From Achromobacter insuavis (GTDB lineage Bacteria > Pseudomonadota > Gammaproteobacteria > Burkholderiales > Burkholderiaceae_B): a stretch of 55,941 bases of DNA. The notes beneath the pieces were generated by a model. That model saw only the letters and a program-made list of their open reading frames with translations, had not been told where the DNA came from and did no database searches. Location: positions 1-55,941 of the forward strand of contig NZ_CADIJR010000044.1 of NCBI RefSeq assembly GCF_902859645.1, read 5' to 3'. Positions 5,872-23,729 of the stretch are shown here, piece by piece. The first letter of the stretch is position 1, and every line of letters starts with the position of its first letter. Made by a program: the position numbers and the translations under genes.

Positions 5872-7188
5872 TCAGCGCGTCGGGCGCAGCTTCAGCGCCA
5901 CCCAGATCCCCGCCACGCAGGCCGCGCCGAAGATCCAGCCCGACGCCGCGCCCGCCATCACGCCGGACAGCAGAGTGCCGACGGTGCAGCCCAGCGCGGT
6001 CATGCCGCCCCACCCCATCAGGACGCCGCCGGTGAAGTTGCGCAGGATCTCGCGCGCCGTCGGCCAGCGCGGCCGGAACGCGCCGGCGGCCAGCGCGGCG
6101 GCCCAGGCGCCCGCCACCAGCGCCAGCACGAAGGCGCCGTTGTTGGACAGCAGCGCGTTCTTGACCGCGGTGGCGCAGCCGGCGAAGGTGTCCAGCCCCT
6201 CCAGCCGGGCCGGCAGCGCGCCGGCCGCGGACGCGGCGGTGCGGGCCACGCTGCCCAGTTCGGCGGTCACGCCCAGCGGCGCGATGCGCAGGTAGGCGAT
6301 GACGCCGATGAAGGCCACCAGCAGGCCGCCGACCGCGGGCGGCCAGCGGTCCCGCAGCACGGCTTGCCATGGCGAGGACGGCGGCGTGGCCGGGCCGTTC
6401 GCCGCGTGCTGGGAGGCATTCGCTGGCCGGATGGCGGCGCCGTCAGGCGCGCCATCGGCCTGGCGCGCCGCCGGAACGCGCCGGCCGAGCCGGCTCAGGC
6501 CCAGCGCCAGCAACGCCAGCAACGCGATTTGCAGCAGCACGGTGCCGCCGTAGCCGAGGTGGTGCGGCAGCCACACCACCAGCGCCTGCTGGATCATGGC
6601 CAGGTACAAGGTGTTCCAGGACGCGAAACCCAGCACGAAGCCGACGCCCGCGCCCAGCAAGGCGAATGGCGAGGCCAGCGCGCCTTCGCCGAGGCGGTAC
6701 AAATGCGCGCTGATGCAGGAGCCCGAGATGCGCATGCCGACCCCGAACACGAACGCCCCGGCCACCAGGGCCAGGCTGACCGGCCCGATGTGAGCGCCGG
6801 GCGGCAGGCGCTCGGCCCCGGGGATGGGCAGGAACGCGCCGAACACCGCGTGATAGCCGAGCGTGCCGACCGCCAGCGCCACCAGCACGGCATAGGCGCC
6901 GGCGGGGTCGCGCCGCTCGATCGCGTCACGCGCGATGCAGTAAAAGCAGAATCGTGAACGTTGCAGCACGATGCCGAAGGCGGCGCCGAGCAGCAGCGAC
7001 AAGGACAGGCCGCGGCCGCCCTCGGGCTGCGACGCCAGCCACCAGGCGGCCGCGCCGATGGCGGCCAGCAGCGCCACGGCCGCCGCATTGCCGATCGCCG
7101 CGGCGGCGGACGGGATCGCGGCGGCCGAGCCCGTGGCGACAGCCGCCGCCGACCCGGCCGGCGGCGCGGAGTTTCCCAGGGCGCTCAC
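5872..7188 (-). CDS. tsuA: YeeE/YedE (TsuA-type) thiosulfate/sulfur transporter
   Basis: A 438-residue inner-membrane protein with about ten or more hydrophobic segments. It carries the YeeE/TsuA cysteine motifs: QRSRFCFYCIARD near residue 80, GSCISAHLYRLGEG in the middle and LGCTVGTLLSGVMAGAASGW near the C terminus. In characterised TsuA, thiosulfate passes along conserved cysteines by transient S-H-S bonds. The N terminus is unusually Ala-rich (about 45 residues) before the first motif, and a start further inside is possible. The GTG start directly abuts the TGA of the rhodanese gene (TGAGTG), so the two are cotranslated. This suggests paired periplasmic sulfur transfer and import. The exact substrate is inferred. 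Confidence 0.88.
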   Translation of the reverse strand: MSALGNSAPPAGSAAAVATGSAAAIPSAAAAIGNAAAVALLAAIGAAAWWLASQPEGGRGLSLSLLLGAAFGIVLQRSRFCFYCIARDAIERRDPAGAYAVLVALAVGTLGYHAVFGAFLPIPGAERLPPGAHIGPVSLALVAGAFVFGVGMRISGSCISAHLYRLGEGALASPFALLGAGVGFVLGFASWNTLYLAMIQQALVVWLPHHLGYGGTVLLQIALLALLALGLSRLGRRVPAARQADGAPDGAAIRPANASQHAANGPATPPSSPWQAVLRDRWPPAVGGLLVAFIGVIAYLRIAPLGVTAELGSVARTAASAAGALPARLEGLDTFAGCATAVKNALLSNNGAFVLALVAGAWAAALAAGAFRPRWPTAREILRNFTGGVLMGWGGMTALGCTVGTLLSGVMAGAASGWIFGAACVAGIWVALKLRPTR

Positions 7189-8115
7189 TCAGGTCTTGCC
7201 CCACACGGTGCCCGACGGATTGCTGATCGGCGAACCGACGCTGTTGCCGTACTCGGTCCACGAACCGTCATAGTTGCGCACGTCGTAGCCCAGCAGCTTG
7301 CGCAGCGCGAACCACGAGTGGCTGGAGCGCTCGCCGATGCGGCAATAGGTGATGATGGGCTTGCTGCCGTCCACGCCCACCGCCTGGTAGATGGCGCGCA
7401 GTTCGTCGGCCGACTTGAAGGTGCCGTCTTCCGCCACCAGCTTGCTCCAGGTGACGTTGACCGCGCCCGGCACGTGGCCGGCGCGCACCGCCAGTTCCGG
7501 CACGCCGTTGGGCGCGAAGATCTTGCCGTTGTATTCGTCGGCCGAACGGATGTCGACCAGCACGTCCTGCTTGTCCTTGCGCGCCACCGCCAGCACGTCC
7601 TGCAGGTGGGCGCGCAGCGCCGGGTTGGCGTCCTTGGGACGCGCGTTGCCGGCGGCCAGCACCTTGACGCTGTTGGACTGCGGGCGGCCCTCGGCTTCCC
7701 ATTTCTTGCGGCCGCCGTCCAGGATCTTCACATTGTCGATGCCGTAGATGTCGAAGATCCACGCGCCCCAGGCGGCGAACCAGTTGTTGTTGTCCCCGTA
7801 CAGCACCACGGTGCTGTCGGTGTTGACGCCGGCGCGCTCCAGCAGCGCCTGGAACTGCTTGGGCGGCGCGATGTCGCGGTTGACGGTGTCGACCAGGTCG
7901 GTGTGCCAGTTGACGTTGCTGGCGCCGGGAATGTGGCCGCGCTCGAACAGGCCGGGATTGACGCTCACCTCGATGACACGCACCTTGGGGTCGTTCAGGT
8001 TCTTCTCCAGCCACTCGGTGGTGACCAGGTACTTGGCGTGCTGCGCCGTGGCGGGAAAGGCCATCAGGCTGGCCAGCGCGGCGAAAGCGCCCGCCAGCAG
8101 TTTCGATAGGGACAT
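7189..8115 (-). CDS. periplasmic thiosulfate sulfurtransferase (two-domain rhodanese)
   Basis: A 308-residue protein: a signal peptide (MSLSKLLAG...FPATA, cleavage near residue 24), an inactive N-terminal rhodanese domain with the CH2A-like VRVIEVSVNPGLFERGHIPGA, and a C-terminal domain with the active loop ITYCRIGERSSH. The CRxGxR loop is the thiosulfate:cyanide rhodanese type, not the CGxGVT loop of mercaptopyruvate sulfurtransferases. I chose the second of two adjacent ATGs (8115) because GGAG lies 6 nt upstream of it; the other is 8118. It is followed without a gap by tsuA, so it probably handles thiosulfate or sulfane sulfur in the periplasm for that transporter. Confidence 0.9.
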   Translation of the reverse strand: MSLSKLLAGAFAALASLMAFPATAQHAKYLVTTEWLEKNLNDPKVRVIEVSVNPGLFERGHIPGASNVNWHTDLVDTVNRDIAPPKQFQALLERAGVNTDSTVVLYGDNNNWFAAWGAWIFDIYGIDNVKILDGGRKKWEAEGRPQSNSVKVLAAGNARPKDANPALRAHLQDVLAVARKDKQDVLVDIRSADEYNGKIFAPNGVPELAVRAGHVPGAVNVTWSKLVAEDGTFKSADELRAIYQAVGVDGSKPIITYCRIGERSSHSWFALRKLLGYDVRNYDGSWTEYGNSVGSPISNPSGTVWGKT

Positions 8116-8218
8116 CATGATCTCCGGAAGCAGGCGCAATGCGGCCTGGGAATCCGGAGCATATTTGTTCAGCTTACAGTCAGGAACAATTTACTGGTCA
8201 TATCCTGATTACCGGAAT

Positions 8219-8248
8219 GCGCAGGTCGCGGTCGATCGCGACCTGCGC
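8219..8248. repeat. 12-bp perfect hairpin between rhodanese genes
   Basis: GCGCAGGTCGCG (8219-8230) and CGCGACCTGCGC (8237-8248) pair perfectly around a 6-base loop (GTCGAT). It lies downstream of the cupin-rhodanese stop (8364) and upstream of the periplasmic rhodanese start, both on the minus strand. There is no T-run, so it may be a factor-dependent terminator, an mRNA 3'-end stabiliser or an operator. The rest of 8116-8363 holds no gene; an AT-richer patch at 8160-8215 is the likely rhodanese-tsuA promoter. Confidence 0.6.
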
Positions 8249-8363
8249 CCGCGAATTCCGGCGCGAGGCCAGCGCGGCGCCTGCCTTCACGACAGGCCGG
8301 CGCCGTGGCGCCGCGCGGCGGATGCCCCGGCTGGGCATCGCCCGCGGCGCCCAGGCGCTCCGC

Positions 8364-10571
8364 CTACGCCGCCGCGATCAACCGGATATCCGCGCTGCCA
8401 TCGCGCTCCAGCTGCGCCACCAGCCCCAGCTCCCAGTCGAGATAGTCGCGGAAGCCCTGGTCGCGCGCCGACAGGTCGTCGAACAGATACGGGCTGATGC
8501 TCTGGTCGTCGTCGCCCGTCAGCACGCCCTCGGCGCCTTGCGCCAGCGGCAGGCCCTGCGCCTGCCAGGCACGCGTGCCGCCCAGCAGGTAACTGACCGG
8601 ACGGCCGCTGCGCCAGGCCAGTTCGGCCGCCGCCACCGCGGCCAGCACGCCGTCGGGCGAGGTCAGCACGATGGGGCGTTGCGTGTCGGTCGGCAGAAAC
8701 TCCTGCAGGCGATCCGGCGCGGCGTAGCGCGCGCCCGGTACGTGGCCGCGCTCGTAGGCCAGCCGCGATTCGATATCGAACAGTTCGGCGGCGCCGGCAT
8801 CCAGCGCCGCCCGCAAGGCCTGGGCCCGCAGCGCGGGCGCGTCGGGCCGGTGGCGCAGCACGCGGCGCGGCTCGGCGCCGCGTTCCAGCGGCGCCAGCGC
8901 CGGCGGTTGGTACAGATAGACCTCGACCGCGCCCAGCTGCGCCAGCCAGGCGCCGGTGGTCTGCGCGCGCACGCCGTCCCAGTCGACCAGCACCACCCGC
9001 GCGCGGCGCGTCGCCAGGTACTCGTCGGTCGCCTGCACCAGCTGGCCGCCCGGCGCCCAGCGCCAGCCCGGCAGGTGGCCGGTCTCGTATTCCTCGCGGG
9101 TGCGCACGTCGAACTTGTACAGCGTGCGCGTGCCCTGCTCGGCCTCGAACGCTCGCAAGGTGGCGGCGTCGATATGGCCGATGCCGGCGCGTTCGGCCAC
9201 GCCGCGCGCCTGCACGCGCGCCGCGGCGGCGCTGTCGGCGGACGGTTCCGGCAAGGCCGCCTGGCGGCCATAGGCCAGCTCGCGGCCGGACAGCAGCCAT
9301 TCCATGGTGCCGTTGCGCAGCGACGCCACGCGGTTCGGGATGCCAGCGTCGATCAGCGTCTGCGCGCCGACGATGCTGCGCGTGCGGCCGGCACAGTTCA
9401 CCACCACGAAGGTCTTGGGATCCGGCGCCAGTTCGCGGATGCGGTACACCAGTTCGGCGCCCGGCAGGCTGTGCGAGAACGGCAGCGTAAAGTTGTGGAA
9501 TTCCTCCGGCGTGCGGCTGTCGACCACCACGATGTCGTCGCCGCGCGCGACGCGCTCGTGCAGGTCGTCGACGTCGATCCAGGGCGTGTGCTTCTCGTGC
9601 TCGATGACTTCGCCGAAGGCCTTGCTGGGCACGTTGGTGCCGGAGAACAGCTCGCGCCCTTCCCGCTCCCAGCCGTCGGTGCCGCCGGCCAGCACCGAGA
9701 TGTCGGTCCAGCCCAGGCGGGTCAGCTTGGCCGCGGCCTGGTGCGCCAGGGTCTCGTCGTCATCCACCAGCACGATGCGCGTGTCGCGGCGCGGCACCAG
9801 GCGGTCGGCCAGCACCTCCAGGCGCCACAGCGGCGCGGGCACCGCGTACAGCAGGTGGCGGCGGGCGTAGCGGCCGGCTTCGCGCACGTCGAGCACGGCG
9901 ATCTCGGCCTCGCCGCGCAGCGCTTCCTGCAACCCGGCGGGCGACAGGCGCGCATGGTAGATCGCGGCCGGCGGCGAAAAGGTGCGGTAGGAACCGCCAG
10001 CGGTGCTCTCGAACACCACCCGGCCATGCAGACGGTCGAGCGCCAGGCCGTAGAAATGCAGGTGCGCGCCGGGCTTGCCGTCCACCAGCTCGATGGTGTG
10101 CACGTCGCTCGGTCCCAGCACGATCGAGTCGCCCGCGGCCACGTCGACGCGCCGCACGTGGGTCAGCACGTCGCGGCCCGGCTCGGCGCCGGCGCTGCGC
10201 GCATAGACCTCGTTGCGCTCGTTGCCCGACACGCCGGCGATGATGGCCCAGGTGGTGTGGTCGTGCGGCGGCTGGGCCTTGCCCGCCTCGCCCAGCGACA
10301 GGTACAGCGCGTAGGCGCCGTCGGCGTCCTCGGCCAGGCGGTAGATCGCGGTGGGCCGGCCCGGCACCACTTCAAAGGCCTGCGGCGGAAACAGCTCGGC
10401 GCGGCGGCCCAGCGCTTCGAGCAGGCGGGCGACCGGCGCCAGTTGATCGGGCGTGGCGCGCGCGGGGTCCGGCACCAGGGCCTTGACCTGCGCGATGAAG
10501 TCGCGCACGGCCCGGGCGCGTTCGGTGTCGTGGCGGAAAGCGGCGGCGGCCGCGTCGGAATGGGTGCTCAT
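8364..10571 (-). CDS. thiol-dioxygenase-like cupin fused to four rhodanese domains
   Basis: A 735-residue cytoplasmic fusion. Residues 1-215 form a COG5553/cysteine-dioxygenase-like cupin with metal-ligand motifs PPH103-D-H105 and H170-L-H172-F-Y-G. Four rhodanese repeats follow, roughly 230-325, 345-460, 485-595 and 610-690. Only the second has a nucleophile, in the loop N-C393-A-G-R-T-R. The equivalent loops in repeats 1, 3 and 4 read VDDDETL, VDWDGVR and TSPDGVL and lack cysteine. A likely role is oxidising a persulfide or thiol held on or handed over by the rhodanese module. The cupin is paralogous to the separate cupin at 13363-13989. Its promoter should lie in 10572-10720. The arrangement is seen directly; the substrate is unknown. 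Confidence 0.88.
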   Translation of the reverse strand: MSTHSDAAAAAFRHDTERARAVRDFIAQVKALVPDPARATPDQLAPVARLLEALGRRAELFPPQAFEVVPGRPTAIYRLAEDADGAYALYLSLGEAGKAQPPHDHTTWAIIAGVSGNERNEVYARSAGAEPGRDVLTHVRRVDVAAGDSIVLGPSDVHTIELVDGKPGAHLHFYGLALDRLHGRVVFESTAGGSYRTFSPPAAIYHARLSPAGLQEALRGEAEIAVLDVREAGRYARRHLLYAVPAPLWRLEVLADRLVPRRDTRIVLVDDDETLAHQAAAKLTRLGWTDISVLAGGTDGWEREGRELFSGTNVPSKAFGEVIEHEKHTPWIDVDDLHERVARGDDIVVVDSRTPEEFHNFTLPFSHSLPGAELVYRIRELAPDPKTFVVVNCAGRTRSIVGAQTLIDAGIPNRVASLRNGTMEWLLSGRELAYGRQAALPEPSADSAAAARVQARGVAERAGIGHIDAATLRAFEAEQGTRTLYKFDVRTREEYETGHLPGWRWAPGGQLVQATDEYLATRRARVVLVDWDGVRAQTTGAWLAQLGAVEVYLYQPPALAPLERGAEPRRVLRHRPDAPALRAQALRAALDAGAAELFDIESRLAYERGHVPGARYAAPDRLQEFLPTDTQRPIVLTSPDGVLAAVAAAELAWRSGRPVSYLLGGTRAWQAQGLPLAQGAEGVLTGDDDQSISPYLFDDLSARDQGFRDYLDWELGLVAQLERDGSADIRLIAAA

Positions 10572-10720
10572 GGGATCCGGAATTCCTGGGGTTGAAGAAC
10601 CGGATCAGCCTACGTCCGCGGCCCGGCGCGGACAACGTAGAAATGCGTCTATGGATATGCGGCGACTGCGCGGCCCATGTCGGCCTCTGGCCGATCAGGC
10701 GGACCGCGCGCGCGCCGCGG

Positions 10721-11650
10721 TCAGGCCTCGCCCTTGAGCGCCTGGTCCACCACCGCGCGCGTCAGCGTCGGCACGAACATCTCGATGAAATGGAAGGCGT
10801 AGCCGCGCAGCCAGGCGCCGCGGCGGATGGCCAGCCGCGTCAGGTTGATCTCGAACAGATGGCGCGCGTCGATGGCGCACAGGCGCGTGTCGCGCTCGGC
10901 GTCCCAGGCCACGGCGGCCACGATGCCCACGCCCAGTTCCAGCTCGACGTAGGTCTTGATGACGTCCGCGTCCATCGCCGTCATGACGATGTCGGGCGTG
11001 ATGCCGGCGCGCGCGAAGGCTTCGTCGATGTGGGCCCGGCCGGTGTAGCCGCGGCCATAGGTGATGATGGGATAGCGCGACAGTTGCGACAGGCTGATGC
11101 CGCCTTCCACCGCGCCCAGCGGATGCCCCTTGGGCACGATGATGCTGTGGCTCCAGCGGTAGCACGGCAGGTTCAGCAGGCCGGGATAGTCGGCCACCGC
11201 CTCGGTGGCGACGCCGATGTCGGCCTCGCCTTCGAGCAGCATTTCCGAGACCTGCCGCGGCGAGCCCTGGTGCAGGTGCAGCACCACCTCGGGATAGCGC
11301 TGGCGGAACTCCTTGATGACCGGCGGCAAGGCATAGCGCGCCTGCGAATGGGTCGCGGCGATCGACAGCACGCCCTTGCGGCTGTCGGCGTATTCGGCGC
11401 CGGCATGACGGATGTTGTCGGCGCATTGCAGGATCTGCTCGACCAGCGGCAGGATCTGCTCGCCCGGCGGCGTCAGGCCGATCAGGCGCTTGCCGGAGCG
11501 CACGAAGATGTCGACGCCGACCTCTTCCTCCAGCTCGCGGATCTGGCGGCTGACGCCGGGTTGCGAGGTGTGCAGGCTTTCCGACACGTCGGTCAGGTTG
11601 AAATCGCGGCGCACGGTTTCGCGCACGGAACGCAGTTGCTGGAAGTTCAT
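10721..11650 (-). CDS. cysB: CysB-family LysR transcriptional regulator
   Basis: A 309-residue LysR protein. The N-terminal winged helix begins MNFQQLRSVRETVRRDFNLTDVSESLHTSQPGVSRQIRELE, which is close to CysB/Cbl. The effector domain contains the conserved TTHTQARY-like segment (AATHSQARYALP) that binds sulfate or acetylserine in CysB. CysB controls assimilation of sulfur sources in response to O-acetylserine, thiosulfate or sulfide. The ATG at 11650 is fixed by family alignment, although the frame is open further upstream into the VOC gene. It lies 40 bp behind the VOC gene and probably shares its promoter. Its place inside a sulfur locus makes local control of the transporter and rhodanese units likely. 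It may be a second CysB-like paralogue rather than the main CysB. Confidence 0.9.
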   Translation of the reverse strand: MNFQQLRSVRETVRRDFNLTDVSESLHTSQPGVSRQIRELEEEVGVDIFVRSGKRLIGLTPPGEQILPLVEQILQCADNIRHAGAEYADSRKGVLSIAATHSQARYALPPVIKEFRQRYPEVVLHLHQGSPRQVSEMLLEGEADIGVATEAVADYPGLLNLPCYRWSHSIIVPKGHPLGAVEGGISLSQLSRYPIITYGRGYTGRAHIDEAFARAGITPDIVMTAMDADVIKTYVELELGVGIVAAVAWDAERDTRLCAIDARHLFEINLTRLAIRRGAWLRGYAFHFIEMFVPTLTRAVVDQALKGEA

Positions 11651-11690
11651 GGAATCGCCGAGGCCTGTGTGAGGGAGCCGAGCACGAGGC

Positions 11691-12038: not shown

Positions 12039-12067
12039 GCCCTGCCGCCAACCTTGGAACAAGGCAA

Positions 12068-12107
12068 ATTCTAGACCCCGGGGGTACAACCGGACAAAGA
12101 GGTTGTA
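12068..12107 (-). promoter_or_regulatory. probable promoter with overlapping inverted repeat, VOC-cysB operon
   Basis: Reading the minus strand, TTGTCC (12097-12092) and TAGAAT (12073-12068) are separated by 18 bp and lie about 30 bp before the VOC start at 12038. An inverted repeat TACAACC (12085-12091) / GGTTGTA (12101-12107) with a 9-bp gap overlaps the -35 element. It could be an autoregulatory site for the downstream CysB-like protein. Confidence 0.5.
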
Positions 12108-12160
12108 ATTGCTTCTACATAATCAGAATCCCTAAGGAAACGCAGTCATTTGCATATGCG

Positions 12161-13366
12161 TCAGGCGCTGCGGCGCAGGCCGTCGCGGACCACGCCGAAG
12201 GCCCGATCGAGGTCTTCCACCAGGTCCAGCGGATGCTCCAGGCCGATGTGCAGGCGCACCACTTCATGGCCGCCCTGCCACACGCTGTGTTCGGCCAGCC
12301 GTTCCGGCGCCGCTTCCAGCGCCAGGCTCTCGTAGCCGCCCCAGGACGCGCCGATGGAGAAATAGCGCAACGCGTCGATGAAGCGCGCCGCGGCGCCCGG
12401 CTGGTCCGCCCGCAGCGCGAACGACACCAGGCCGCTGGCGCCGCTGAAATCACGCCGCCACAGCGCATGGCCGGGATCCTGCGGCAAGGCCGGGTAATAG
12501 ACCCGCTCGACGTCCGCGTGGCGCGACAGGTATTCCGCCACGCTCAGCGCGTTCTGGTGGTGGCGCGCCAGCCGCACGTCCAGCGTGCGCAGGCCGCGCA
12601 GCGTCAGGTAGGCATCGTCCGCGCCCACCGCCAGGCCGAGCGCGTCGTAGGTGGCGCCGACCTGCCGCGCCAGCTCGGGGCTGTCGACCGTGACCACGCC
12701 CATCATCACGTCCGAATGACCGGCCAGGTACTTGGTGGCGGCCTGGATCGAGATGTTGGCGCCCAGCGCCAGCGGCTGGTAGTAGAGGCCGCCGCTCCAG
12801 GTGTTGTCGGTGGCCACCACCACGCCGCGGCTGCGCGCCTGGGCCGCCAGCGCCGGCAGGTCCAGCACCTCGAACAGCAGCGAACTGGGAGACTCCAGAT
12901 ACAGCAGCCGCGTGTTGGGGCGGAAGCGTTCGGCCAGATCGTCGCGGCCGGGCGAGAAGTATTCAACCTCGATGCCGTAGCGCTGCAGCAGCGCCTTGTC
13001 GACGCGCCGCACCGGCGAATAGACGCTGTCCGACACCAGCGCATGCTCGCCCGGCGCCAGCGTGGCCAGCAGCACCAGCACGATGGCCGACAGGCCGGAC
13101 GGCGCCAGGACGCTGCGATGGCCCCCTTCCAGCGAGGCCACCGCAGCTTCCAGCGCCTGGTGCGTGTCCAGGCCATGGCGGCCGTAGGTGGCGACGCGTT
13201 CGCCAGCGGCGCGCTGCGCGTTCAGCGCCGCGTGCGTGGCGGTGTCGGCAAAGCGCACGGTGCTGGTGCGCACCACCGGCACATTGACCGGGCCGGCGCC
13301 CTGCTTCAGGTCGGGACTGCCGGCATGCACCAGCCGGGTTTGCACGTGGGCGTGATCGAGGCTCAT
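12161..13366 (-). CDS. metC: cystathionine beta-lyase / trans-sulfuration PLP enzyme (MetC type)
   Basis: A 401-residue Cys/Met-metabolism PLP enzyme. It has the PLP Asp at D187 (VATDNTW) and the Schiff-base lysine K212 in the family motif AATKYLAGHSDVMMG. The N-terminal 'TYGRHGLDTHQALE' and 'GHRSVLAPSGLSAI' also fit. The length and GHSDVMMG motif favour beta-elimination of cystathionine or cystine (releasing thiol, pyruvate and ammonia) over gamma-synthase activity. It is the last gene of the transporter operon and overlaps the cupin stop by 4 bp. In this context a C-S lyase for the imported sulfur amino acid is as likely as methionine biosynthesis. Confidence 0.88.
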   Translation of the reverse strand: MSLDHAHVQTRLVHAGSPDLKQGAGPVNVPVVRTSTVRFADTATHAALNAQRAAGERVATYGRHGLDTHQALEAAVASLEGGHRSVLAPSGLSAIVLVLLATLAPGEHALVSDSVYSPVRRVDKALLQRYGIEVEYFSPGRDDLAERFRPNTRLLYLESPSSLLFEVLDLPALAAQARSRGVVVATDNTWSGGLYYQPLALGANISIQAATKYLAGHSDVMMGVVTVDSPELARQVGATYDALGLAVGADDAYLTLRGLRTLDVRLARHHQNALSVAEYLSRHADVERVYYPALPQDPGHALWRRDFSGASGLVSFALRADQPGAAARFIDALRYFSIGASWGGYESLALEAAPERLAEHSVWQGGHEVVRLHIGLEHPLDLVEDLDRAFGVVRDGLRRSA

Positions 13367-13989
13367 GCGCGCTGCTCCTGGCCCGGCTTCATCTGGGTGG
13401 CGTTGTAGTTGACGATCTCGCCGGTGGCCAGGTCGATGCCGATGCGGCCCGACAGCGTCTCCAGCGGCTGGCCGTACAGGTGGAAATGCAGGGTCGGCTC
13501 ATCGCCGGTGACATGGATGCTGTGGATGTCGTCCGGCAGGAACGACACCGACTGCCCCGGCTGCACCACCACTTCGCGCACCTGTTCCAGCGTGGCGCGG
13601 CCGGCCTGCGAGCCGTCGTCGCTGCGGCGGTAGACGCGATTCAGTTCCTGGCCCGACAGGGCCACGATCACCGCCCAGGTGGTGTGGTTGTGCGGCAAGG
13701 TGGTCTTGCCCGGGTTGATCGAGTTCAGGTAGAGCGCCGGTTCGCCGGCGGCGTCGTCGGGATTGAGGCGGTAGCGGGTCGAGGCGCCCACGCCCTGCCC
13801 CGGCGCCGGCGGCGCGAATTCGGCCGCGGGAAACAGCGCGCGCTGTTGCGCCAGTTGTTCCAGGCGCGTGGTGATCCGCGCCAGCAAGTCGCGCGACAGC
13901 GGCGCGGCGGCCAGCAGGCCGCGGATGTCGGCCAGGGCGTCCTGCACCTGCTGGCGGCGTTCGAGGGAAACGGAAGATTCGGTGGTCAT
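13363..13989 (-). CDS. cysteine-dioxygenase-like cupin (COG5553)
   Basis: A 208-residue cupin with metal-binding motifs LPH100-N-H102-TTWAV and LH168-F-H170-LYG. It matches the N-terminal domain of the cupin-rhodanese fusion at 8364-10571 over the same blocks (HxHTTWA, SGxExNxVY, HFxxYG). Members are treated as thiol dioxygenases that add O2 to cysteine or mercapto-acids with non-haem Fe(II). I chose the ATG at 13989, which has GGAG 5 nt upstream, over an in-frame start at 14019. It follows the ABC ATPase gene by 26 bp and overlaps the lyase gene by 4 bp. Substrate (cysteine, 3-mercaptopropionate, mercaptolactate or other) cannot be read from sequence. Confidence 0.85.
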   Translation of the reverse strand: MTTESSVSLERRQQVQDALADIRGLLAAAPLSRDLLARITTRLEQLAQQRALFPAAEFAPPAPGQGVGASTRYRLNPDDAAGEPALYLNSINPGKTTLPHNHTTWAVIVALSGQELNRVYRRSDDGSQAGRATLEQVREVVVQPGQSVSFLPDDIHSIHVTGDEPTLHFHLYGQPLETLSGRIGIDLATGEIVNYNATQMKPGQEQRA

Positions 13990-14015
13990 GTCGGCTCCGG
14001 GTTGCGCAAAGCGCG

Positions 14016-14867
14016 TCACACTGCGAGGCGCAGCGGGTCAAAGGTCAGGTAGGCGTCGATCGGATCGGCCTGGGCGCGCCGCACCGGCGGCTCGGCCGAG
14101 GCGCGTTGCAGGAAGGCGCGGGTGCGTTCGCTGTCGGGCCGGCCAAAGATGCGGGCCGGCGGGCCGTGCTCGACGATGCGGCCGGCCTCGGTGAAGTACA
14201 CCGTGTCGCTCACCTCCTGGGCGAAGCGCATTTCGTGCGTCACCAGCACGCAGGTCAGGCCGTCCTGCACCAGGTCGCGGATCACGGTCAGCACTTCGCC
14301 CACCATTTCCGGATCCAGCGCCGAGGTCACTTCGTCGAACAGGATCAGTTCGGGCCGCAGGGCCAGCGCGCGGGCAATGGCCACGCGTTGCTGCTGGCCG
14401 CCCGACAGCTCGCCCGGGTAGGCGTTTTCCTTGTGGTCCATGCGCACCTTGGCCAGCAGCTCGCGCGCCAGCGCCTGGGCCTGGGCCCGCGGCTGGCCGT
14501 TGACCTTGATGGGCGAAATCACCAGGTTCTCCAGCACGCTCAGGTGCGGGAACAGGTTGTATTGCTGGAACACGAAGCCCACCCGCTTGCGCAGGGCGAT
14601 CAGCTCGGACTCGGTCTTGAGCCCGTCGACCCGCACGCCGCCGACCTCGATCTCGCCGCGCTGCGGCCGCAGCAGGCCGGTGATGCAGCGCAGGATGGTC
14701 GACTTGCCCGAGCCCGACGGGCCGATGATGGACACCGCGTTGCCGGGCCGGACCTCGACGTCGATGCCCTTGAGCACCTCGGTCTGGCCGAATGCCAGGT
14801 GCACGTCCCGCAGGCTCACCAGCGGGGTGTCGGTCGCGGCGTGGCCGCCGCTGTCAGTAATGCGCAT
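14016..14867 (-). CDS. polar amino-acid ABC transporter ATP-binding protein
   Basis: A 283-residue ATPase of the GlnQ/HisP/TcyC family. It has Walker A G49-PSGSGKST57, a Q-loop near 101 (FQQYNLFPHLS), the signature LSGGQ at 154-158 and Walker B LILFDE at 174-179, followed by the VTSALDPE D-loop. The family energises import of amino acids including cystine. The C-terminal 35 residues extend beyond the typical 245-250-residue length. It overlaps the upstream permease gene by 14 bp, in an operon with both permeases and two binding proteins. Neighbouring sulfur enzymes suggest a sulfur-containing substrate. Confidence 0.92.
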   Translation of the reverse strand: MRITDSGGHAATDTPLVSLRDVHLAFGQTEVLKGIDVEVRPGNAVSIIGPSGSGKSTILRCITGLLRPQRGEIEVGGVRVDGLKTESELIALRKRVGFVFQQYNLFPHLSVLENLVISPIKVNGQPRAQAQALARELLAKVRMDHKENAYPGELSGGQQQRVAIARALALRPELILFDEVTSALDPEMVGEVLTVIRDLVQDGLTCVLVTHEMRFAQEVSDTVYFTEAGRIVEHGPPARIFGRPDSERTRAFLQRASAEPPVRRAQADPIDAYLTFDPLRLAV

Positions 14868-15672
14868 AACGTCGTTCCAGATGGCGCGTCCAGCGCGCGA
14901 TGGGATAGCAATAGGCGAAGAACAGCGCCAATAGCGTGAAATAGACCAGGATGGTGAAGTCGCTGCGCGCCACCGTGTTGCTGGCCACCGTGGCGGTGTC
15001 GACCAGGTCGTGCACGCCGACCAGCGAGGCCAGCGAGGTGCTCATGGTGATGCTGGCGTACAGGTTCATCCACGACGGCAGCATGCGCCGCACGCACTGC
15101 GGCAGCACGATCATGCGGAAGATCTGCGAGCGCCGGAACGCCAGCGACTGCGCCGCTTCCCATTGCGCCTCGGGGATCGACTGGATCGCCCCGCGGAAGA
15201 TCTCGGCGACGTTGGCGCTGGCCGGCAGGCCCAGCCCGATCACCACCTTGATCCAGTCGGGAAACGGCAGGTTCCAGCCGCCCAGGTTCAGTTCGAACGG
15301 AAACACGTAGGTCGTGAAGTACACCAGCACCAGGATCGGCGCGTTGCGGAACGCCAGCACGTAGATCCGCGTCAAGCGCCGCAACAGGGGCGACGGCGAC
15401 AGCGACAGCGCGCCCACCACCAGCCCGACGGCCGTGCCCAGCGCCATGGCCAGCACGCTGATCTGCACGTTCATGCCCAGGCCGCGCAGCAACGCCGGCG
15501 ACCAGTGCCACAGGTGCCGCACCGCGGCCGGCGCGCTGTCGGTCAGGGCCCACGCGACGCCCAGCGCGACCAGCGCCAGCAGCAGCACCACCCACGGATC
15601 GCGCAGCAGCGCCCGCCAGCCGCCGCCCGCGCGATGCGCGGCAGCGCCATTCAATACCAGTTCATTGGCCAT
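14854..15672 (-). CDS. polar amino-acid ABC transporter permease (second)
   Basis: A 272-residue inner-membrane permease. After an N-terminal segment (about 25-45) it shows the His/Glu/Gln-type permease core: 'GLGMNVQISVLAMALGTAVGLV', then the ATPase-coupling EAA loop 'IPEAQWEAAQSLAFRRSQIFRMIVLPQCVRRMLPSWMNL' (about 190-230). It overlaps the first permease gene by 11 bp and the ATPase gene by 14 bp. With the other permease it forms the heterodimeric channel of the importer. Confidence 0.92.
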   Translation of the reverse strand: MANELVLNGAAAHRAGGGWRALLRDPWVVLLLALVALGVAWALTDSAPAAVRHLWHWSPALLRGLGMNVQISVLAMALGTAVGLVVGALSLSPSPLLRRLTRIYVLAFRNAPILVLVYFTTYVFPFELNLGGWNLPFPDWIKVVIGLGLPASANVAEIFRGAIQSIPEAQWEAAQSLAFRRSQIFRMIVLPQCVRRMLPSWMNLYASITMSTSLASLVGVHDLVDTATVASNTVARSDFTILVYFTLLALFFAYCYPIARWTRHLERRYAHY

Positions 15673-16399
15673 AGCCGGGCATCCTCAAGCGCGCTTCCAG
15701 CCAGCGTCCGCCCACGCTCACCAGCCAGGTCAGCAGGCCGAAATACAGCAGGATCAGCAGCAACAGTTCCAGCACGTTGTCGCGGTGCGACCAGATCATG
15801 ATGGACTCGTAGGTCACATCCCCCACCGCGATGGCCGAGGCGATCGCGGTCATCTTCACCAGATCCACCAGGTTGTTGACCAGCGCCGGCAGCGCGAAGC
15901 GCAGCGCCAGCGGCAGTTGCACCTGCGTCAGGATCTGGCGGCGCGAGAAGGCCAGCGAGCGCGCGGCTTCCAGCGTCACCGCCGGCACCGCCTCGATGCC
16001 GGCGCGCAGCGCCTCGGCGTGGAACACGCCCTTGTGCAGCGCCACCACGATCACCACCCACATGAACGGCGTGATCGGGCTGCCACCGCCCAGCTTCTGC
16101 GTGATCAGCATGTTCAACACCAGGAAGGCGCAATACAGCTGCACCAGCGTCGGCGTGTTGCGGGTCAGTTCGACGAAGGCCTGCAGCGGCCGCGCCAGCC
16201 AGCCGCGACCGCTGGTGAGCCCGGCCGCGATCAGCACGCCGAACAGCAGGCTGACGGGGATGGTCCAGGCGCACAGTTGCAGCGTCACCAGCAGGCCGTG
16301 GCCGAAGGCGGACAGCTCGCCCGGATCCAGCACGAAGCCGTAATTCAGGCCCAGGGGCTTGAAGAAATGGACCCAGGCCTGCAATGCCTGTTCGATCAT
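15662..16399 (-). CDS. polar amino-acid ABC transporter permease (first)
   Basis: A 245-residue permease of the His/Glu/Gln/Arg family. It contains 'GHGLLVTLQLCAWTIPVSLLFGVL', the 'VELTRNTPTLVQLYCAFL' element conserved in this family, and the EAA loop 'IEAVPAVTLEAARSLAFSRRQILTQVQLPLALRFALPALVNNL' contacting the ATPase. Five membrane segments can be recognised. The start overlaps the stop of the aminotransferase gene by 4 bp, and its own stop lies inside the next permease gene, so the whole transporter is tightly coupled to the enzymes before it. Confidence 0.92.
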   Translation of the reverse strand: MIEQALQAWVHFFKPLGLNYGFVLDPGELSAFGHGLLVTLQLCAWTIPVSLLFGVLIAAGLTSGRGWLARPLQAFVELTRNTPTLVQLYCAFLVLNMLITQKLGGGSPITPFMWVVIVVALHKGVFHAEALRAGIEAVPAVTLEAARSLAFSRRQILTQVQLPLALRFALPALVNNLVDLVKMTAIASAIAVGDVTYESIMIWSHRDNVLELLLLILLYFGLLTWLVSVGGRWLEARLRMPGYGQ

Positions 16400-17640
16400 G
16401 CGGCCGCCTCCAGCGCCGCCGGCCGCAGCGCCGCCACGGCGCGGCCGATGCGCGTCACGGCTTCGGCCAGCTTGGCGTCCGACGCGGCGAACGACAGCCG
16501 CAGGTACGGCGACAGGCCGTAGGCCGCGCCGCGCACCACCGCCACCCCTTCGGCTTCGAGCAGCCAGTCGACCACGTCGCCATCATCGGCGATGACGCCG
16601 CCGTCGGGTCGGACCTGGCCGATCAGGCCGGCCACCCCGATCCAGGCGAAGAACGAGCCGCGCGGCGCCGCCACGCGCAGGCCCGGCACCGCGCCCAGGC
16701 CGTCGACGATCAGCCGCGCCCGGCGCGCATAGGCCAGCCGCGCGTTCTCGACGAAGTCGTCGGCCACGCCCTGCAGCGCCACCAGCGCGGCGGCCTGGCC
16801 CAGCGAACTGGGGCCCGACGACACCTGCGACTGCACCGCCTCCAGCACGCCGATCAGCGCCGCCGGGCCCACGCCCCAGCCGATGCGCCAGCCGGTCATG
16901 GCATAGGCCTTGGACACGCCGTTGACCGCCAGCGTGCGTCCGGCCAGCTCCGGCGCGACGCGCAGCAGGTGCGCGGGCGGCTCGTCGAACCAGATCTGCT
17001 CGTACATCTCGTCCCACAGCACCAGCACCGACGGGTGCTCGCGCAGCACCGCCGCCAGCGCCGCCAGCTCGGCCTCGCTGTAGACCGCGCCCGACGGATT
17101 GCCGGGGGAATTCAGGATCAGCCACTTGGTGCGCGGCGTCAGCGCCTGGCGCAGGCCCTGCGGCGTGAGCTTGAAGCCATCGGCCTCGGCCGTCGGCGCC
17201 AGCACCGGCCTGCCGCCGTTGACCCGCACCGAGTCGAGGAAGGTGGGCCAGTACGGCGTCGGCACGATCACCTCGTCGCCCTCGTCCAGCGTGGCGGCCA
17301 GGGCCAGGTAGATCACCTGCTTGCCGCCGTTGGAGATGATGACGTGGGCCGCCTCGGTGGGCAGGCCGTGGCGCTGGCGATAGCCATCGGCCACGGCGCG
17401 CCGCAGCGCGGCGGTGCCGGCGGTCGGCGTGTACTTGGTCTGGCCTTGCGCCAGCGCCAGCGCGGCGGCGTCCTTGATGGCCTGGGGCGTGTCGAAGTCG
17501 GGCTCGCCCGAGGTCAACACCACGATCGAGCGGCCCTCGGCCGCCAGCCGCGCGGCGCGCGCGCCGGCCGCGGCGATGGGCGACAGTTCGACGCCGCGGG
17601 CGCGGCGCGAGAACACGCCGGGAAACAGGGATTCAGTCAT
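16396..17640 (-). CDS. class I/II PLP aminotransferase
   Basis: A 414-residue fold-type-I aminotransferase of the aspartate/aromatic group. It carries SGEPDFDTP near 44-52, NSPGNPSG at 177-184, the pyridine-N Asp at D210 (VLWDEMYE) and the Schiff-base lysine K244 in SKAYAMTGWRIGWG. A carboxylate-binding Arg is expected near the C terminus (YLRLSFA context). Family members transaminate aspartate, cysteine, methionine or aromatic amino acids. Here it sits between an FAD 2-hydroxyacid dehydrogenase and the transporter with 4-bp overlaps on both sides. Reversible conversion of an imported amino acid to the keto acid that the dehydrogenase would also make is the natural inference. Confidence 0.9.
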   Translation of the reverse strand: MTESLFPGVFSRRARGVELSPIAAAGARAARLAAEGRSIVVLTSGEPDFDTPQAIKDAAALALAQGQTKYTPTAGTAALRRAVADGYRQRHGLPTEAAHVIISNGGKQVIYLALAATLDEGDEVIVPTPYWPTFLDSVRVNGGRPVLAPTAEADGFKLTPQGLRQALTPRTKWLILNSPGNPSGAVYSEAELAALAAVLREHPSVLVLWDEMYEQIWFDEPPAHLLRVAPELAGRTLAVNGVSKAYAMTGWRIGWGVGPAALIGVLEAVQSQVSSGPSSLGQAAALVALQGVADDFVENARLAYARRARLIVDGLGAVPGLRVAAPRGSFFAWIGVAGLIGQVRPDGGVIADDGDVVDWLLEAEGVAVVRGAAYGLSPYLRLSFAASDAKLAEAVTRIGRAVAALRPAALEAAA

Positions 17641-19058
17641 GACAGGACCTTTCCGGGATTCATCAGGTTCAGGGGATCGAGCGCCTGCTTGACGCGGCGC
17701 ATCAGCGCCAGTTCCAGCGGGCTCTTGAAATGGGGCAAGGCGTCGCGCTTGACCTGGCCGATGCCGTGCTCGGCGCTGATCGAGCCGCCCTGCGCATGGG
17801 CCTGGGCGTGCACCAGGTCATGGATGCGGGCCTCGTTGGCGAACAGGCGCGCCACCGGGCCGGCGGGGTCGTGCGACACGTTGTAGTGCAGGTTGCCGTC
17901 GCCCAAGTGGCCGAACGCCATCGGCCGCAGGCCCGGGTCGAGCGCGCGCAGCGCTTGCGCGGCGCCCTGCAGGAAGGCCGGAATCCGCGAGACCGGCACC
18001 GAGATGTCGTGCTTGACGTTGCCGCCGTCACGCGCCTGCGCCAGGCCGATGGCCTCGTCGCGCAGCCGCCAGAACGCGGCGGCCTGCTGCAGGCTGTGGG
18101 CGATGGCCGCGTCCTCCAGCAAGCCCTCGCCCAGCGCCGCCTCGGCCAGGCGCTGCAAGGCGTCCGCCGCGCCGGCCTCGTTGGCGGAGACCTCCAGCAA
18201 GGCGTACCAGGGTTGCGCCAGCGCCGGCAGCGGCTGCGGCTGGTCCGGCACGTGGCGCGCCACCAGTTCCAGCACCGGCCGGCCGATCAGTTCGAACGCC
18301 GTCAGCTGCGCGCCCAGGCGCCGCCGCGCCAGCGACAGGAACCCCAGCGCCGCCTCGATCGACGGCAGCCCGGCCAGGGCGCTGCCCTGCTCGGCCGGCT
18401 TGGGATACAGCTTGAGCGTGGCCGCGGTGATCACGCCGAGCGTGCCCTCGCTGCCGATGTACAGGTCCCGCAGCGAATAGCCGGTGTTGTCCTTGCGCAG
18501 GCCGCGCAGGCCGTTCCAGACTTCGCCCTCGGCCGTCACCACCTCCAGCCCCAGCGTCAGCTCGCGCGCATTGCCGTAGCGCAGCACCTGCGTGCCGCCG
18601 GCGTTGGTGGCAAGATTGCCGCCAATGGTGCAGCTGCCTTCGGACCCCAGGCTCAGCGGGAACAGGCGGCCGGCCTGGCTGGCGGCCTCCTGCACCTGCG
18701 CCAGCACACAGCCGGCCTGCACCGTGATGGTGTCGTTGTCGGTATCGATGCCCAGCACCCGGTTCAGGCGGCCCAGCGACAGCACCACGGCCTGGCCGCT
18801 GGCGTCCGGCGTGGCGCCGCCCATCAGCCCGGTATTGCCGCCCTGCGGCACCACCGGCACCCGCGCGGCGCGGCACAGGCGCAATACCGCCGCCACGCCC
18901 TCGGCGTCGGCCGGACGCGCCACCGCCAACGCCTGTCCGTGCAGCACGCGGCGCTGGTCGGTCAGGAACGGCGCCGCGTCCGCGCCGGTCGCGACCCAGT
19001 CCGCGCCCAGCCGCGCGCGCAGCGCGGCCAGCAGCGTGTCCTCGGCGGCCGTCGTCAT
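17637..19058 (-). CDS. FAD-dependent D-2-hydroxyacid dehydrogenase (GlcD/DLD/D2HGDH family)
   Basis: A 473-residue vanillyl-alcohol-oxidase-fold flavoprotein. The FAD-binding PCMH domain (about 40-220) includes VVPQGGNTGLMGGATPD and SEGSCTIGGNLATNAGGTQVLRYGNARE. The C-terminal FAD-oxidase domain ends with FGHLGDGNLHYNVSHD and SISAEHGIGQVKRDAL, motifs for metal and substrate-carboxylate binding in D-lactate and D-2-hydroxyglutarate dehydrogenases. It would oxidise a D-2-hydroxy acid to a 2-keto acid. No glcE or glcF follows, so it is not glycolate oxidase. Overlaps of 4 bp with the binding-protein and aminotransferase genes suggest a hydroxy-acid analogue of the imported amino acid, for example mercaptolactate (inference). 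Confidence 0.9.
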   Translation of the reverse strand: MTTAAEDTLLAALRARLGADWVATGADAAPFLTDQRRVLHGQALAVARPADAEGVAAVLRLCRAARVPVVPQGGNTGLMGGATPDASGQAVVLSLGRLNRVLGIDTDNDTITVQAGCVLAQVQEAASQAGRLFPLSLGSEGSCTIGGNLATNAGGTQVLRYGNARELTLGLEVVTAEGEVWNGLRGLRKDNTGYSLRDLYIGSEGTLGVITAATLKLYPKPAEQGSALAGLPSIEAALGFLSLARRRLGAQLTAFELIGRPVLELVARHVPDQPQPLPALAQPWYALLEVSANEAGAADALQRLAEAALGEGLLEDAAIAHSLQQAAAFWRLRDEAIGLAQARDGGNVKHDISVPVSRIPAFLQGAAQALRALDPGLRPMAFGHLGDGNLHYNVSHDPAGPVARLFANEARIHDLVHAQAHAQGGSISAEHGIGQVKRDALPHFKSPLELALMRRVKQALDPLNLMNPGKVLS

Positions 19059-19915
19059 GGCTTGGCCTGGGCCTCGGGCGGCGCGCTGTCGAACTTGCCG
19101 GCCTGCGCGTCGGCGTTGGCCTGCCGCAGGTAATCGGCCGGCACGCCGAACTTGTCGGCCTCTTTCACCAACAGGCCGGACTTATGCCAGTCGCGGATCA
19201 CGCCGTCGACGAAGGCGCGCGTATCGGCCTCGTTGCGGCGGGTCCAGATCACCGTGGGCGACGGGATCAACTGGTCCGGGGTGGCCAGCTCGAAGCCTTC
19301 CCATTCCTTGCCATTGGGCCCGTGCAGCGTCTCGTACAGCGCCGGCTGGATGTGCACCGAGGCGTCGCAACTGCCGCCCTTGAGCGCCAGCAGCGATTCC
19401 GGGATGTTGCGCAGGCCCTTGACCACCGCGCCGTAGGTGTCCTGCAGCGGCTTGGCGAAATTGCTGCCTTGCGACACGCAGGCCACCTTGCCCTTCAGGT
19501 CCTCCCAGCGCTTGATGCCGCTGCGCTTGGACACCATGGCCGCGCCGCCGACCAGGTTGTAGGGCGTCGGCGCGTAGCTCAGGATCTCGCTGCGTTCCTG
19601 GGTCCACTGGATGTTGGCGATCAGCAGATCGACCTTGCCGGCCTGCAGGAACTGCACGCGGGTCGCGGCCGTCACCGGCACCGTCTCCAGCGTCACGCCC
19701 AGGCGCCGGGCGATATCGCCGCCCAGCTCGGTCTGGAAGCCGCCCACCTTGCCGGTGGCCGGATCGAGCAGGCCGAACGGCGGGCTGGCGCCGTCCACGC
19801 CCACCACCAGCTTGCCGCGCTGCTTGACGCGGTCCAGGGTGGCGTCGGCGTGCGCCGCCGTCGCCAGGGACGCCAGCGCCAGCGCGGCGGCCCACTTGAT
19901 TGCTTGTCTATTCAT
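19055..19915 (-). CDS. ABC transporter periplasmic amino-acid-binding protein, copy 1
   Basis: A 286-residue bacterial extracellular solute-binding protein family 3. It has a Sec signal peptide (MNRQAIKWAAALALASLATAAHA), then VKQRGKLVVGVDGASPPFGLLDPATGKVGGFQTELGGDIARRLGV, the usual lobe-1 start. It shares the block 'WEDLKGKVACVSQGSNFAKP' and 'YGAVVKG' with the neighbouring copy at 19947-20786, so the two are paralogues from a local duplication. Its stop overlaps the dehydrogenase start. Ligand is probably a small amino acid or analogue. Confidence 0.92.
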   Translation of the reverse strand: MNRQAIKWAAALALASLATAAHADATLDRVKQRGKLVVGVDGASPPFGLLDPATGKVGGFQTELGGDIARRLGVTLETVPVTAATRVQFLQAGKVDLLIANIQWTQERSEILSYAPTPYNLVGGAAMVSKRSGIKRWEDLKGKVACVSQGSNFAKPLQDTYGAVVKGLRNIPESLLALKGGSCDASVHIQPALYETLHGPNGKEWEGFELATPDQLIPSPTVIWTRRNEADTRAFVDGVIRDWHKSGLLVKEADKFGVPADYLRQANADAQAGKFDSAPPEAQAKP

Positions 19916-19946
19916 CGGTCTTTTCCAACACGGGCGGGCGCGAGGC

Positions 19947-20786
19947 TCAGCTGCCCTGCTTGTACTTGTCGTGCAGTTCCTGCAGCAGCGGCTGCGGCGG
20001 CTGGATGTCCAGGCGCTTCTCGGTGGCGATCAGCCAGCCGCTGCGGTGCCAGCCCTGGATCACCTTGTCGACGGCGGCGATGGTGTCGGCCTCGCCCTTG
20101 CGGGTCCAGACCACCGAATTGGCCGGCAGCACTTCCGTGGCGATGGGCGCGTGATAGTCGGCCCATTCGGGATTGGTGCGCAGCAGCGGATGGATCAGGG
20201 TCGAATCGTGCACCGCGGCCACGCACTGGCCGCCGCGCAGCGCCAGCAGCGAGTCCGAAGAACTCTTGTAGCCCTTGACCACCGCGCCGTAGTCGGCCTG
20301 CAGGGGCCGCGCGAAGCTGCTGCCCTGCGACACGCAGACCGGCTTGCCGCGCAGGTCTTCCCACTTGGCGATGCCGCTGTCCTTGCGGGTGGCGGCGGCG
20401 CCGCCCACGCGGAAGAACGGCGTCGGCGCGTAGCCGAGGATCTCGGCGCGTTCGGGGTTCAGCTCCATCGACGCGATCAGCAGATCGACCTTGCCCGAGA
20501 TCAGGAACTGCGTGCGGGTGGCGGTCTGCACCTGCACCAGCTCGGCCTTCACGCCCAGGCCCTTGGCCAGTTCACGCGCCAGATCGGGATTCCAGCCGAC
20601 CAGTTGCTGCGTGGCGGGGTCGATCGAGCCGAACACGCCGCCGTTGGCCAGCACGCCGATGGTGACGGTGCCGCGTTCCTTGATCTTGTCCAGCGTGGCA
20701 TCGGCATGGGCGCCGGCGGCGCCGGCCGCCAGGGCCAGCGCGACGGCCGCCTGCAGGATACGGCCGGAGATATTGCGAGTCTTCAT
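19947..20786 (-). CDS. ABC transporter periplasmic amino-acid-binding protein, copy 2
   Basis: A 279-residue family-3 solute-binding protein and first gene of the nine-gene operon. Signal peptide MKTRNISGRILQAAVALALAAGAAGAHA is followed by TLDKIKERGTVTIGVLANGGVFGSIDPATQQLVGWNPDLARELAKGLGV. It differs from copy 1 in the ligand-facing N-terminal loop (VLANGGVFGSI against VDGASPPFGLL) but keeps the 'WEDLRGKPVCVSQGSSFARP' block. Two receptors for one permease pair suggest two related ligands. The 105-bp gap 20787-20891 should hold the operon promoter; no clear sigma-70 elements stood out. Confidence 0.92.
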   Translation of the reverse strand: MKTRNISGRILQAAVALALAAGAAGAHADATLDKIKERGTVTIGVLANGGVFGSIDPATQQLVGWNPDLARELAKGLGVKAELVQVQTATRTQFLISGKVDLLIASMELNPERAEILGYAPTPFFRVGGAAATRKDSGIAKWEDLRGKPVCVSQGSSFARPLQADYGAVVKGYKSSSDSLLALRGGQCVAAVHDSTLIHPLLRTNPEWADYHAPIATEVLPANSVVWTRKGEADTIAAVDKVIQGWHRSGWLIATEKRLDIQPPQPLLQELHDKYKQGS

Positions 20787-21917: not shown

Positions 21918-21996
21918 CCTGCTCCTGCGGAAATTCCAAGCAGGCCAGGATAGGAGCGCGCCGTGCGCCGGACAAATACCGATACGCAATGTGGAA

Positions 21997-22975: not shown

Positions 22976-22988
22976 CGTCCGTCTCCGT

Positions 22989-23722: not shown

Positions 23723-23729
23723 TGATGGC

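Follow-up and report, generated by a model that had tools for sequence, protein, structure and literature searches.

The window, a stretch of 55,941 nucleotides on contig NZ_CADIJR010000044.1 of Achromobacter insuavis, carries on its minus strand a nine-gene operon (12161-20786) encoding two binding proteins (SBP1 and SBP2), a FAD 2-hydroxyacid dehydrogenase, an aminotransferase, two permeases, an ATPase, a free-standing cupin of the mercaptosuccinate dioxygenase (MSDO) type and a pyridoxal-phosphate (PLP) C-S lyase. We propose that this operon may use a carboxylated S-conjugate of cysteine as a source of sulfur, and probably of carbon/nitrogen, a general mechanism on which we are evenly divided. 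The cluster, taken with its regulator and rhodanese genes, probably imports an acid-bearing S-substituted cysteine and its desamino form, frees the thiol and oxidises it to sulfite. SBP1 would work with the ABC permeases and ATPase to import the amino acid, and SBP2 would feed that permease with an analogue lacking the amino group, a 2-keto or D-2-hydroxy acid. The D-hydroxy acid would be converted to the keto acid by the FAD enzyme and the keto acid to the amino acid by the aminotransferase, after which the lyase would break the amino acid down to pyruvate, ammonia and a thiol bearing carboxylate. Oxidation of this thiol by the MSDO-type dioxygenase would give a sulfinate that falls apart to sulfite, a rhodanese with a fused second cupin would handle sulfite/sulfane sulfur and a CysB-family regulator would control the locus. 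The best single substrate candidate, put forward with low confidence, is S-(2-succino)cysteine; a beta-lyase reaction, as expected for this enzyme family, would turn it into mercaptosuccinate with release of pyruvate and ammonia. Gene identities, conservation, residue classes and co-occurrence were established directly, the reaction of MSDO and the genes present in the Advenella locus are taken from the literature, and the rest we infer.

The free cupin scored just under the cut-off of Pfam Cupin_2 (25.8 bits; cut-off 27.2) and its identity was settled by its match to the MSDO structure (8vni; 8.5e-40). Cysteine dioxygenase (CDO) and 3-mercaptopropionate dioxygenase (3MDO) were rejected as identities, as their chains matched at 3e-5 or weaker. 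The cupin keeps three metal histidines and a His/Tyr motif, roles that we assume from the motif, as well as an arginine at the position of the predicted substrate arginine Arg66. Arg66 of the MSDO from Variovorax paradoxus B4 is the predicted substrate-binding arginine (excerpt of PMC8503633) and aligned with window Arg72 (208-residue numbering). This column held Arg in 119 of 120 operon-type and 20 of 21 msdo-type rows of the cupin alignment, Ile, Val or Leu in all 48 fusion cupins and Leu or Ile in all nine rhodanese-linked cupins, with Arg in none of the latter two groups; some genes are repeated among these rows, which comprise 94 operon-type, 19 msdo-type, 40 fusion and 9 rhodanese-linked distinct sequences. 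The column of window Arg182 was Arg in every aligned row of all four groups and, equated by motif position, would correspond to Arg168 of 3MDO, the role of which is given in an excerpt of PMC8050391. Two such arginines would fit a thiol with two carboxylates. A clade-specific difference was seen at MSDO Leu68, which is Arg74 in the window cupin. The nearest named relatives were from Achromobacter, with the A. dolens cupin at 98% among the matches listed. A second cupin in the same genome (contig C45) scored 281 bits with 8vni compared to 140 for the window cupin and is the likelier true MSDO. Because of this closer copy we call the window cupin MSDO-type, a predicted assignment, and not an orthologue of the characterised MSDO. 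The first-pass annotation had named cysteine/mercaptolactate as example substrates, which the MSDO type of the dioxygenase and its retained predicted substrate arginine argue against. At another locus (L161), a cupin whose residue in the column of MSDO Arg66 is Leu adjoins a relative of the FAD dehydrogenase; neither a transporter nor a lyase of the window type was matched there.

A cupin of this superfamily was found in 38 of 61 genomes searched, the window genome included, at a threshold of 1e-10, and across the order in 32 of 399 genomes at 1e-25. An orthologue of the window lyase (>=73%) occurred in 25 of 28 congeneric genomes, the 28 having been picked out of 37 with the cupin result in view. 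SBP1, both permeases, the ATPase, the lyase, the LysR gene and the fusion gene were present in all 25 of the other congeneric loci mapped. Twenty of the 25 had SBP2 as well as the aminotransferase and the other five had neither, the FAD gene was present in eight, and the free cupin was whole in 16, absent in eight and apparently broken in one; the window genome has all of these variable parts. The 15-kb stretch treated as a unit in the first-pass annotation therefore divides into variable parts (SBP2 with the aminotransferase, the FAD gene and the free cupin) and a core that stays in relatives together with LysR and the fusion gene. In one congeneric genome (G032) the free cupin gene seems to be split in two pieces (L044:8131-8511).

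A wider scan confirmed at least 575 relatives among 595 pattern stretches, and the best 80 of these at least 575, chosen by their cupin, were analysed (hereafter the named loci). They include Achromobacter, Bordetella, Variovorax, Delftia, Comamonas and Cupriavidus, and also Caballeronia, Paraburkholderia, Herbaspirillum, Ralstonia and Pseudomonas. The lyase was found in 72 of the 80, the lyase with permease and ATPase in 70, a rhodanese in 66 and all four in 61; only 65 have full 10-kb flanks, so some gene absences are contig ends. That lyase, permease and ATPase accompany the cupin (70/80) is new here. A lack of conserved linkage between the sulfur genes and the transporter would have counted against the first-pass annotation, and this linkage recurs in Burkholderiales and Pseudomonas; its proposals of C-S cleavage, of thiol dioxygenation and of a link to a rhodanese and a CysB-family regulator are supported as well. 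On a plasmid of Variovorax paradoxus VAI-C (CP063167; L032), an operon of the core type is preceded by a sulfurtransferase and followed by three hydantoinase/oxoprolinase genes.

Binding proteins of the loci that were at least 45% like SBP1 or SBP2 fell into two classes at three alignment columns, with Glu/Arg/Asp in 94 rows (class A, including SBP1) and Gln/Arg/(Ile or Val) in 42 + 33 rows (class B, including SBP2). Five rows had other combinations or gaps, and no aligned receptor mixed the classes (no Glu with Ile/Val, no Gln with Asp). The best 80 loci alone contributed 66 class A, 51 class B and five other rows. Four solved amino-acid receptors have Thr/Arg/Asp at the same columns, and class B receptors are without the Asp that these four keep. 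In the glutamine-binding protein (GlnBP), Thr70 and Arg75 contact the alpha group of the ligand and Asp157 contacts the ligand (excerpt of PMC7400645). The receptor columns would fit the Thr70/Arg75 spacing and the third was taken as Asp157, with GlnBP itself outside the alignment. The loss of this Asp points to an SBP2 ligand that has no alpha-ammonium group.

SBP1 had its best solved matches in 1xt8 and 2yjp, both of which we take to bind cysteine, and it shares Arg and Asp with these and with the Tcy transporters, which belong to the same transporter family. Unlike the cystine Tcy systems, however, SBP1 has Glu and not Thr, SBP2 lacks the Asp and the scores were below the cystine cut-offs. 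The ATPase scored 303 bits against the NCBIfam model TcyN (cut-off 406), and SBP2 and SBP1 scored 80 and 69 bits against the cystine receptor model (cut-off 312). All NCBIfam cystine-transport models were below cut-off, and by them the system does not qualify as a cystine transporter. Seven of the best 80 loci (L096, L102, L103, L104, L106, L114, L119) have two class B receptors together with one of class A. All seven carry the FAD gene, and they make up 7 of the 15 loci with FAD gene and aminotransferase compared to 0 of the 18 with the aminotransferase only; the double class B receptors are possibly separate ones for keto and hydroxy forms. A further receptor type, with Leu and Glu at the two class positions, was observed near Cupriavidus operons (L112:11885, L119:13235).

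A class B receptor was found nearby in all 33 named loci with the aminotransferase compared to 11 of the 47 loci without it (Fisher P = 2.5e-13, relatedness ignored), and this restriction of the aminotransferase to loci with an SBP2-type receptor, like the two receptor classes themselves, is new here. For a tree, the sequences of both permeases and of the ATPase were taken from 75 of 89 loci (the 80 named and nine others; 14 were dropped with a gene missing or too short). On this quick tree, with 16 of 72 inner branches unsupported, the aminotransferase changed state at least 13 times and the class B receptor followed it in 11-12 of 13 independent pairs with none opposed (median P = 0.0005). 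The FAD gene accompanied the aminotransferase in 15 of the 16 named loci that carry the FAD gene, and SBP2, the FAD gene and the aminotransferase usually adjoin one another. Judged by its matches to solved structures (3pm9, 9e-135; 6lpn, 2e-92; 8jdc, 4e-50), the FAD enzyme is closest to 3pm9 and to D-2-hydroxyglutarate dehydrogenase, with D-lactate dehydrogenase well behind. The nearest relatives of the aminotransferase are aspartate aminotransferases, and for both enzymes this hints at acids with a second carboxylate. The receptor residues and the co-occurrence point to import of an amino acid together with its deaminated (keto/hydroxy) analogue, as first annotated. The conversion to a thio-keto acid that had been annotated with it is replaced here by the reverse direction, in which the aminotransferase would more probably supply the lyase with the amino acid.

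The lyase passed TIGR01324 (384 bits; cut-off 366), placing it in the cystathionine beta-lyase family, and the LysR protein passed NCBIfam PRK12684 (451 bits; cut-off 402), which bears out its description as a CysB-like regulator. Pfam found four rhodanese stretches in 8364-10571 and two in 7189-8139, so that the cupin-rhodanese fusion and the second rhodanese protein are both present as described. Only the second domain of the four-domain rhodanese has a catalytic-type Cys loop. This catalytic Cys occurred in 118 of 125 rows (mostly CAGRTRS; the other seven were gaps) of an alignment in which proteins were cut at 760 residues. The four-domain rhodanese either has a gene of its own or follows, within one protein, a cupin without the substrate arginine, and was near or fused to a cupin in 16 of 20 stretches taken from the 32 genomes of the order with a cupin match; from its family, our guess is that it handles sulfite or sulfane sulfur. 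The fused form resembles persulfide dioxygenase-rhodanese fusions in joining a dioxygenase and a rhodanese in one protein. The dioxygenase part of those fusions has a metallo-beta-lactamase fold, whereas that of the window protein is an MSDO-family cupin. Some members of the genus have the double-rhodanese gene next to the fusion gene. The membrane protein at 5872-7188 could be placed only at the level of its family, PF04143, and the name TsuA given to it earlier was dropped, as it scored 82 and 62 bits against TsuA models with cut-offs of 400 and 645; the YedE/FdhT model gave 98 bits (cut-off 350).

The first-pass annotation knew of no named pathway with exactly this gene set, but the core of the set has a precedent. 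An excerpt of PMC5373536 describes in Advenella mimigardefordensis DPN7 a locus (MIM_c37410-c37480) with LysR, msdo, a cystathionine beta-lyase, a rhodanese and an ABC transporter of the polar amino-acid transport (PAAT) family. According to this excerpt, strains deleted for msdo or lysR are impaired in growth on mercaptosuccinate, the purified MSDO has a KM of 0.2 mM, and msdo also stands beside a rhodanese and a lyase in V. paradoxus B4; its section on the locus assigns no pathway role to the lyase, rhodanese or transporter. The window likewise brings together a LysR gene, an MSDO-type cupin, a C-S lyase, a rhodanese (here the cupin fusion) and a PAAT transporter. It differs in adding SBP2, the aminotransferase, the FAD dehydrogenase and the cupin-rhodanese fusion, and in having a cupin with half the MSDO-structure score of the C45 copy. 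The window cluster and the known msdo locus are relatives, the former diverged and enlarged. In the window genome itself, a C45 cluster at about 40915-42668 and beyond (L033:9906-13305) has the order asparaginase, MSDO-like cupin, C-S lyase and rhodanese, and no window-type polar amino-acid permease was found in the 20 kb examined there.

It is possible, though doubtful, that msdo-type clusters in general are natural S-(2-succino)cysteine pathways, in which the lyase would give mercaptosuccinate and the dioxygenase succinate and sulfite. The window version would also recover the keto and D-hydroxy forms, with two matched receptors, one for the amino acid and one for its desamino form, serving a single permease. 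The known routes for this compound (the yxe operon with YxeK, or 2SL) acetylate, break, deacetylate and recover cysteine (excerpt of PMC9706529). Should the candidate substrate be correct, the window operon would, like them, dispose of a succinated cysteine. It was rejected as a yxe/2SL pathway, as Pfam found no acetyltransferase, monooxygenase or deacetylase among its nine genes, the genes covered by this comparison. A literature search, from which most subscription papers were out of reach, found no paper joining 2-succino, cysteine and mercaptosuccinate.

Several observations weigh against the proposed use of a carboxylated cysteine S-conjugate. Transporter and lyase are kept in the eight other genomes of the genus without the free cupin and in a ninth where it is apparently broken. 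The succinocysteine route needs no rhodanese, and the proposal offers no explanation for the Glu of SBP1 where solved receptors have Thr. Its reading of SBP2 presumes that the Asp at the third receptor column holds the alpha-ammonium group of the ligand. The association of SBP2 with the aminotransferase may be inflated, because the genes are usually close and can be lost jointly by one deletion. On the tree, the FAD gene agreed with the aminotransferase in 4-6 of 6 pairs with none opposed, which was not significant (median P = 0.06). The aminotransferase was not associated with the free cupin, but this control is weak, since the loci had been selected by their cupin and its presence hardly varies among them. 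The lyase residues, too, give the proposal no support. Arg at the position of Escherichia coli Q115 was rejected as evidence because the housekeeping lyase has it too (four congeneric copies). The residues at E. coli positions 58/59 were mostly Arg/His in 93 rows with at least 55% identity to the window lyase, the measure by which the groups were cut, and Ala/Arg in all 15 rows below. They vary among operon-type loci and were rejected as a marker of window-type versus msdo-type lyases, since 7 of these 15 rows are Pseudomonas lyases from loci with operon-type cupins; a minor argument against a substrate shared with the msdo cluster thereby falls away.

An alternative, unlikely in our estimate, is a route in which a cysteine disulfide (cystine or a mixed disulfide) is imported and split by the lyase into a persulfide, pyruvate and ammonia, after which the rhodanese would strip off the sulfane sulfur and the thiol left over would be oxidised by the dioxygenase. 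This would give the rhodanese, found near the cupin in 66 of 80 loci, a role, and would agree with the solved matches of SBP1, if 1xt8 and 2yjp bind cysteine as presumed, and with TcyN as nearest model of the ATPase (cystine permease and receptor models also matched, all below cut-off). The free cupin is MSDO-like and not CDO-like, however, and keeps both Arg72 and Arg182. Import and interconversion of cysteine, mercaptopyruvate and mercaptolactate with desulfuration by sulfurtransferases appears distinctly improbable. The aminotransferase, hydroxyacid dehydrogenase and class B receptor are all present, and for one window rhodanese the nearest model is that of 3-mercaptopyruvate sulfurtransferase (144 bits; cut-off 250). 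Such a route is opposed by the MSDO type of the dioxygenase, by the closeness of the FAD enzyme to D-2-hydroxyglutarate rather than D-lactate dehydrogenase and by the aspartate aminotransferases as nearest relatives of the aminotransferase.

Class B receptors without a nearby aminotransferase occurred in 11 of the 80 loci (ten in Caballeronia/Paraburkholderia, one in Corticimicrobacter) and may therefore serve a thiol acid without an amino group, a further point against the S-conjugate. One locus with lyase, transporter and a class B receptor but without the aminotransferase close by is that of Paraburkholderia xenovorans LB400 (L145). SBP2 might, by extension, import a desamino thiol acid such as mercaptosuccinate straight to the dioxygenase, with the aminotransferase and dehydrogenase in a separate side reaction. 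The Advenella PAAT receptor (37450) and ATPase (37480) are in a table of proteins of increased abundance in the excerpt of PMC5373536, as this would lead one to expect, but the class B receptor in 33 of 33 aminotransferase loci, backed by the independent tree pairs, speaks against it and we think it quite improbable. PAAT transporters and aspartate-type aminotransferases are common, and the operon could in principle serve uptake and catabolism of a non-sulfur amino acid beside unrelated sulfur genes. We consider this very improbable given that C-S lyase and thiol dioxygenase occur with transporter genes in 70 of 80 loci from several genera, albeit loci chosen by the cupin.

The nine-gene operon is real, and its genes belong to the families first annotated (Table 1). 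The frames of the operon, LysR, rhodanese and PF04143 genes have a third-position GC content (GC3) of 0.84-0.95, which together with the recurrence of the gene order in relatives makes the operon more than chance. The first-pass annotation of nine overlapping genes held for the families and for the single strand, but not all of the genes overlap. SBP1 and SBP2 are separated by a gap of 31 bases, and an overlap of the cupin gene with the ATPase gene would require GTG 14019 as the cupin start. ATG 13989, which leaves a gap of 26 bases, is favoured because most relatives' matches begin at residues 9-11 of the frame. The LysR start was placed near 11650 because the PRK12684 match begins at frame residue 140. 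Directly upstream on the minus strand (20892-24668) lie genes for a TctC-type binding protein, an alpha/beta hydrolase and a pyroglutamyl peptidase, a trio that recurs in many Achromobacter loci; the TctC-type gene is a recurrent neighbour in those with the cupin and/or the aminotransferase. The three were weighed as operon parts and classed as neighbours.

Table 1. Genes of the operon and its surroundings in the window.
Feature	Coordinates	Strand	Basis
SBP1, PAAT binding protein, class A (Glu + Asp); predicted amino-acid receptor	19947..20786	-	Pfam SBP_bac_3; class residues
SBP2, PAAT binding protein, class B (Gln + Ile); predicted receptor for analogue without amino group	19055..19915	-	SBP_bac_3; class residues
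FAD 2-hydroxyacid dehydrogenase	17637..19058	-	Pfam FAD_binding_4 + FAD-oxidase_C; solved-structure matches
Aminotransferase class I/II	16396..17640	-	Pfam; closest solved chains aspartate aminotransferases B and A (6f35, 6f77)
ABC permease 1	15662..16399	-	Pfam
ABC permease 2	14854..15672	-	Pfam
ABC ATPase	14016..14867	-	Pfam; nearest NCBIfam model TcyN, below cut-off
Predicted MSDO-type thiol dioxygenase (free cupin); alternative start 14019	13363..13989	-	Match to MSDO
PLP C-S lyase, cystathionine beta-lyase family	12161..13366	-	Pfam Cys_Met_Meta_PP 6e-102; TIGR01324
CysB-family LysR regulator	10721..11650	-	NCBIfam PRK12684
Fusion of MSDO-like cupin (Ile at substrate-Arg position) and four rhodanese-like domains	8364..10571	-	Pfam; alignments
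Double-rhodanese sulfurtransferase, signal-like N-terminus; neighbour gene	7189..8094	-	Pfam; loop CRIGERS by eye
PF04143 (YeeE/YedE, Sulf_transp) membrane protein	5872..7188	-	Pfam
TctC-type binding protein, upstream of SBP1	20892..21914	-	Recurrent Achromobacter neighbour

The contrast of Glu + Asp with Gln + Ile/Val amounts to a sequence rule, backed by the co-occurrence with the aminotransferase on the tree, that would predict whether a receptor takes the amino acid or its deaminated form. The conserved four-domain rhodanese is tied to thiol dioxygenases both as a neighbour and as a fusion. Fumarate and thiols react spontaneously, with succinated cysteine as a damage product, and the proposed pathway, if true, would be a further route for its breakdown. 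It would also supply a natural source of mercaptosuccinate, and hence a reason for mercaptosuccinate dioxygenase to exist.

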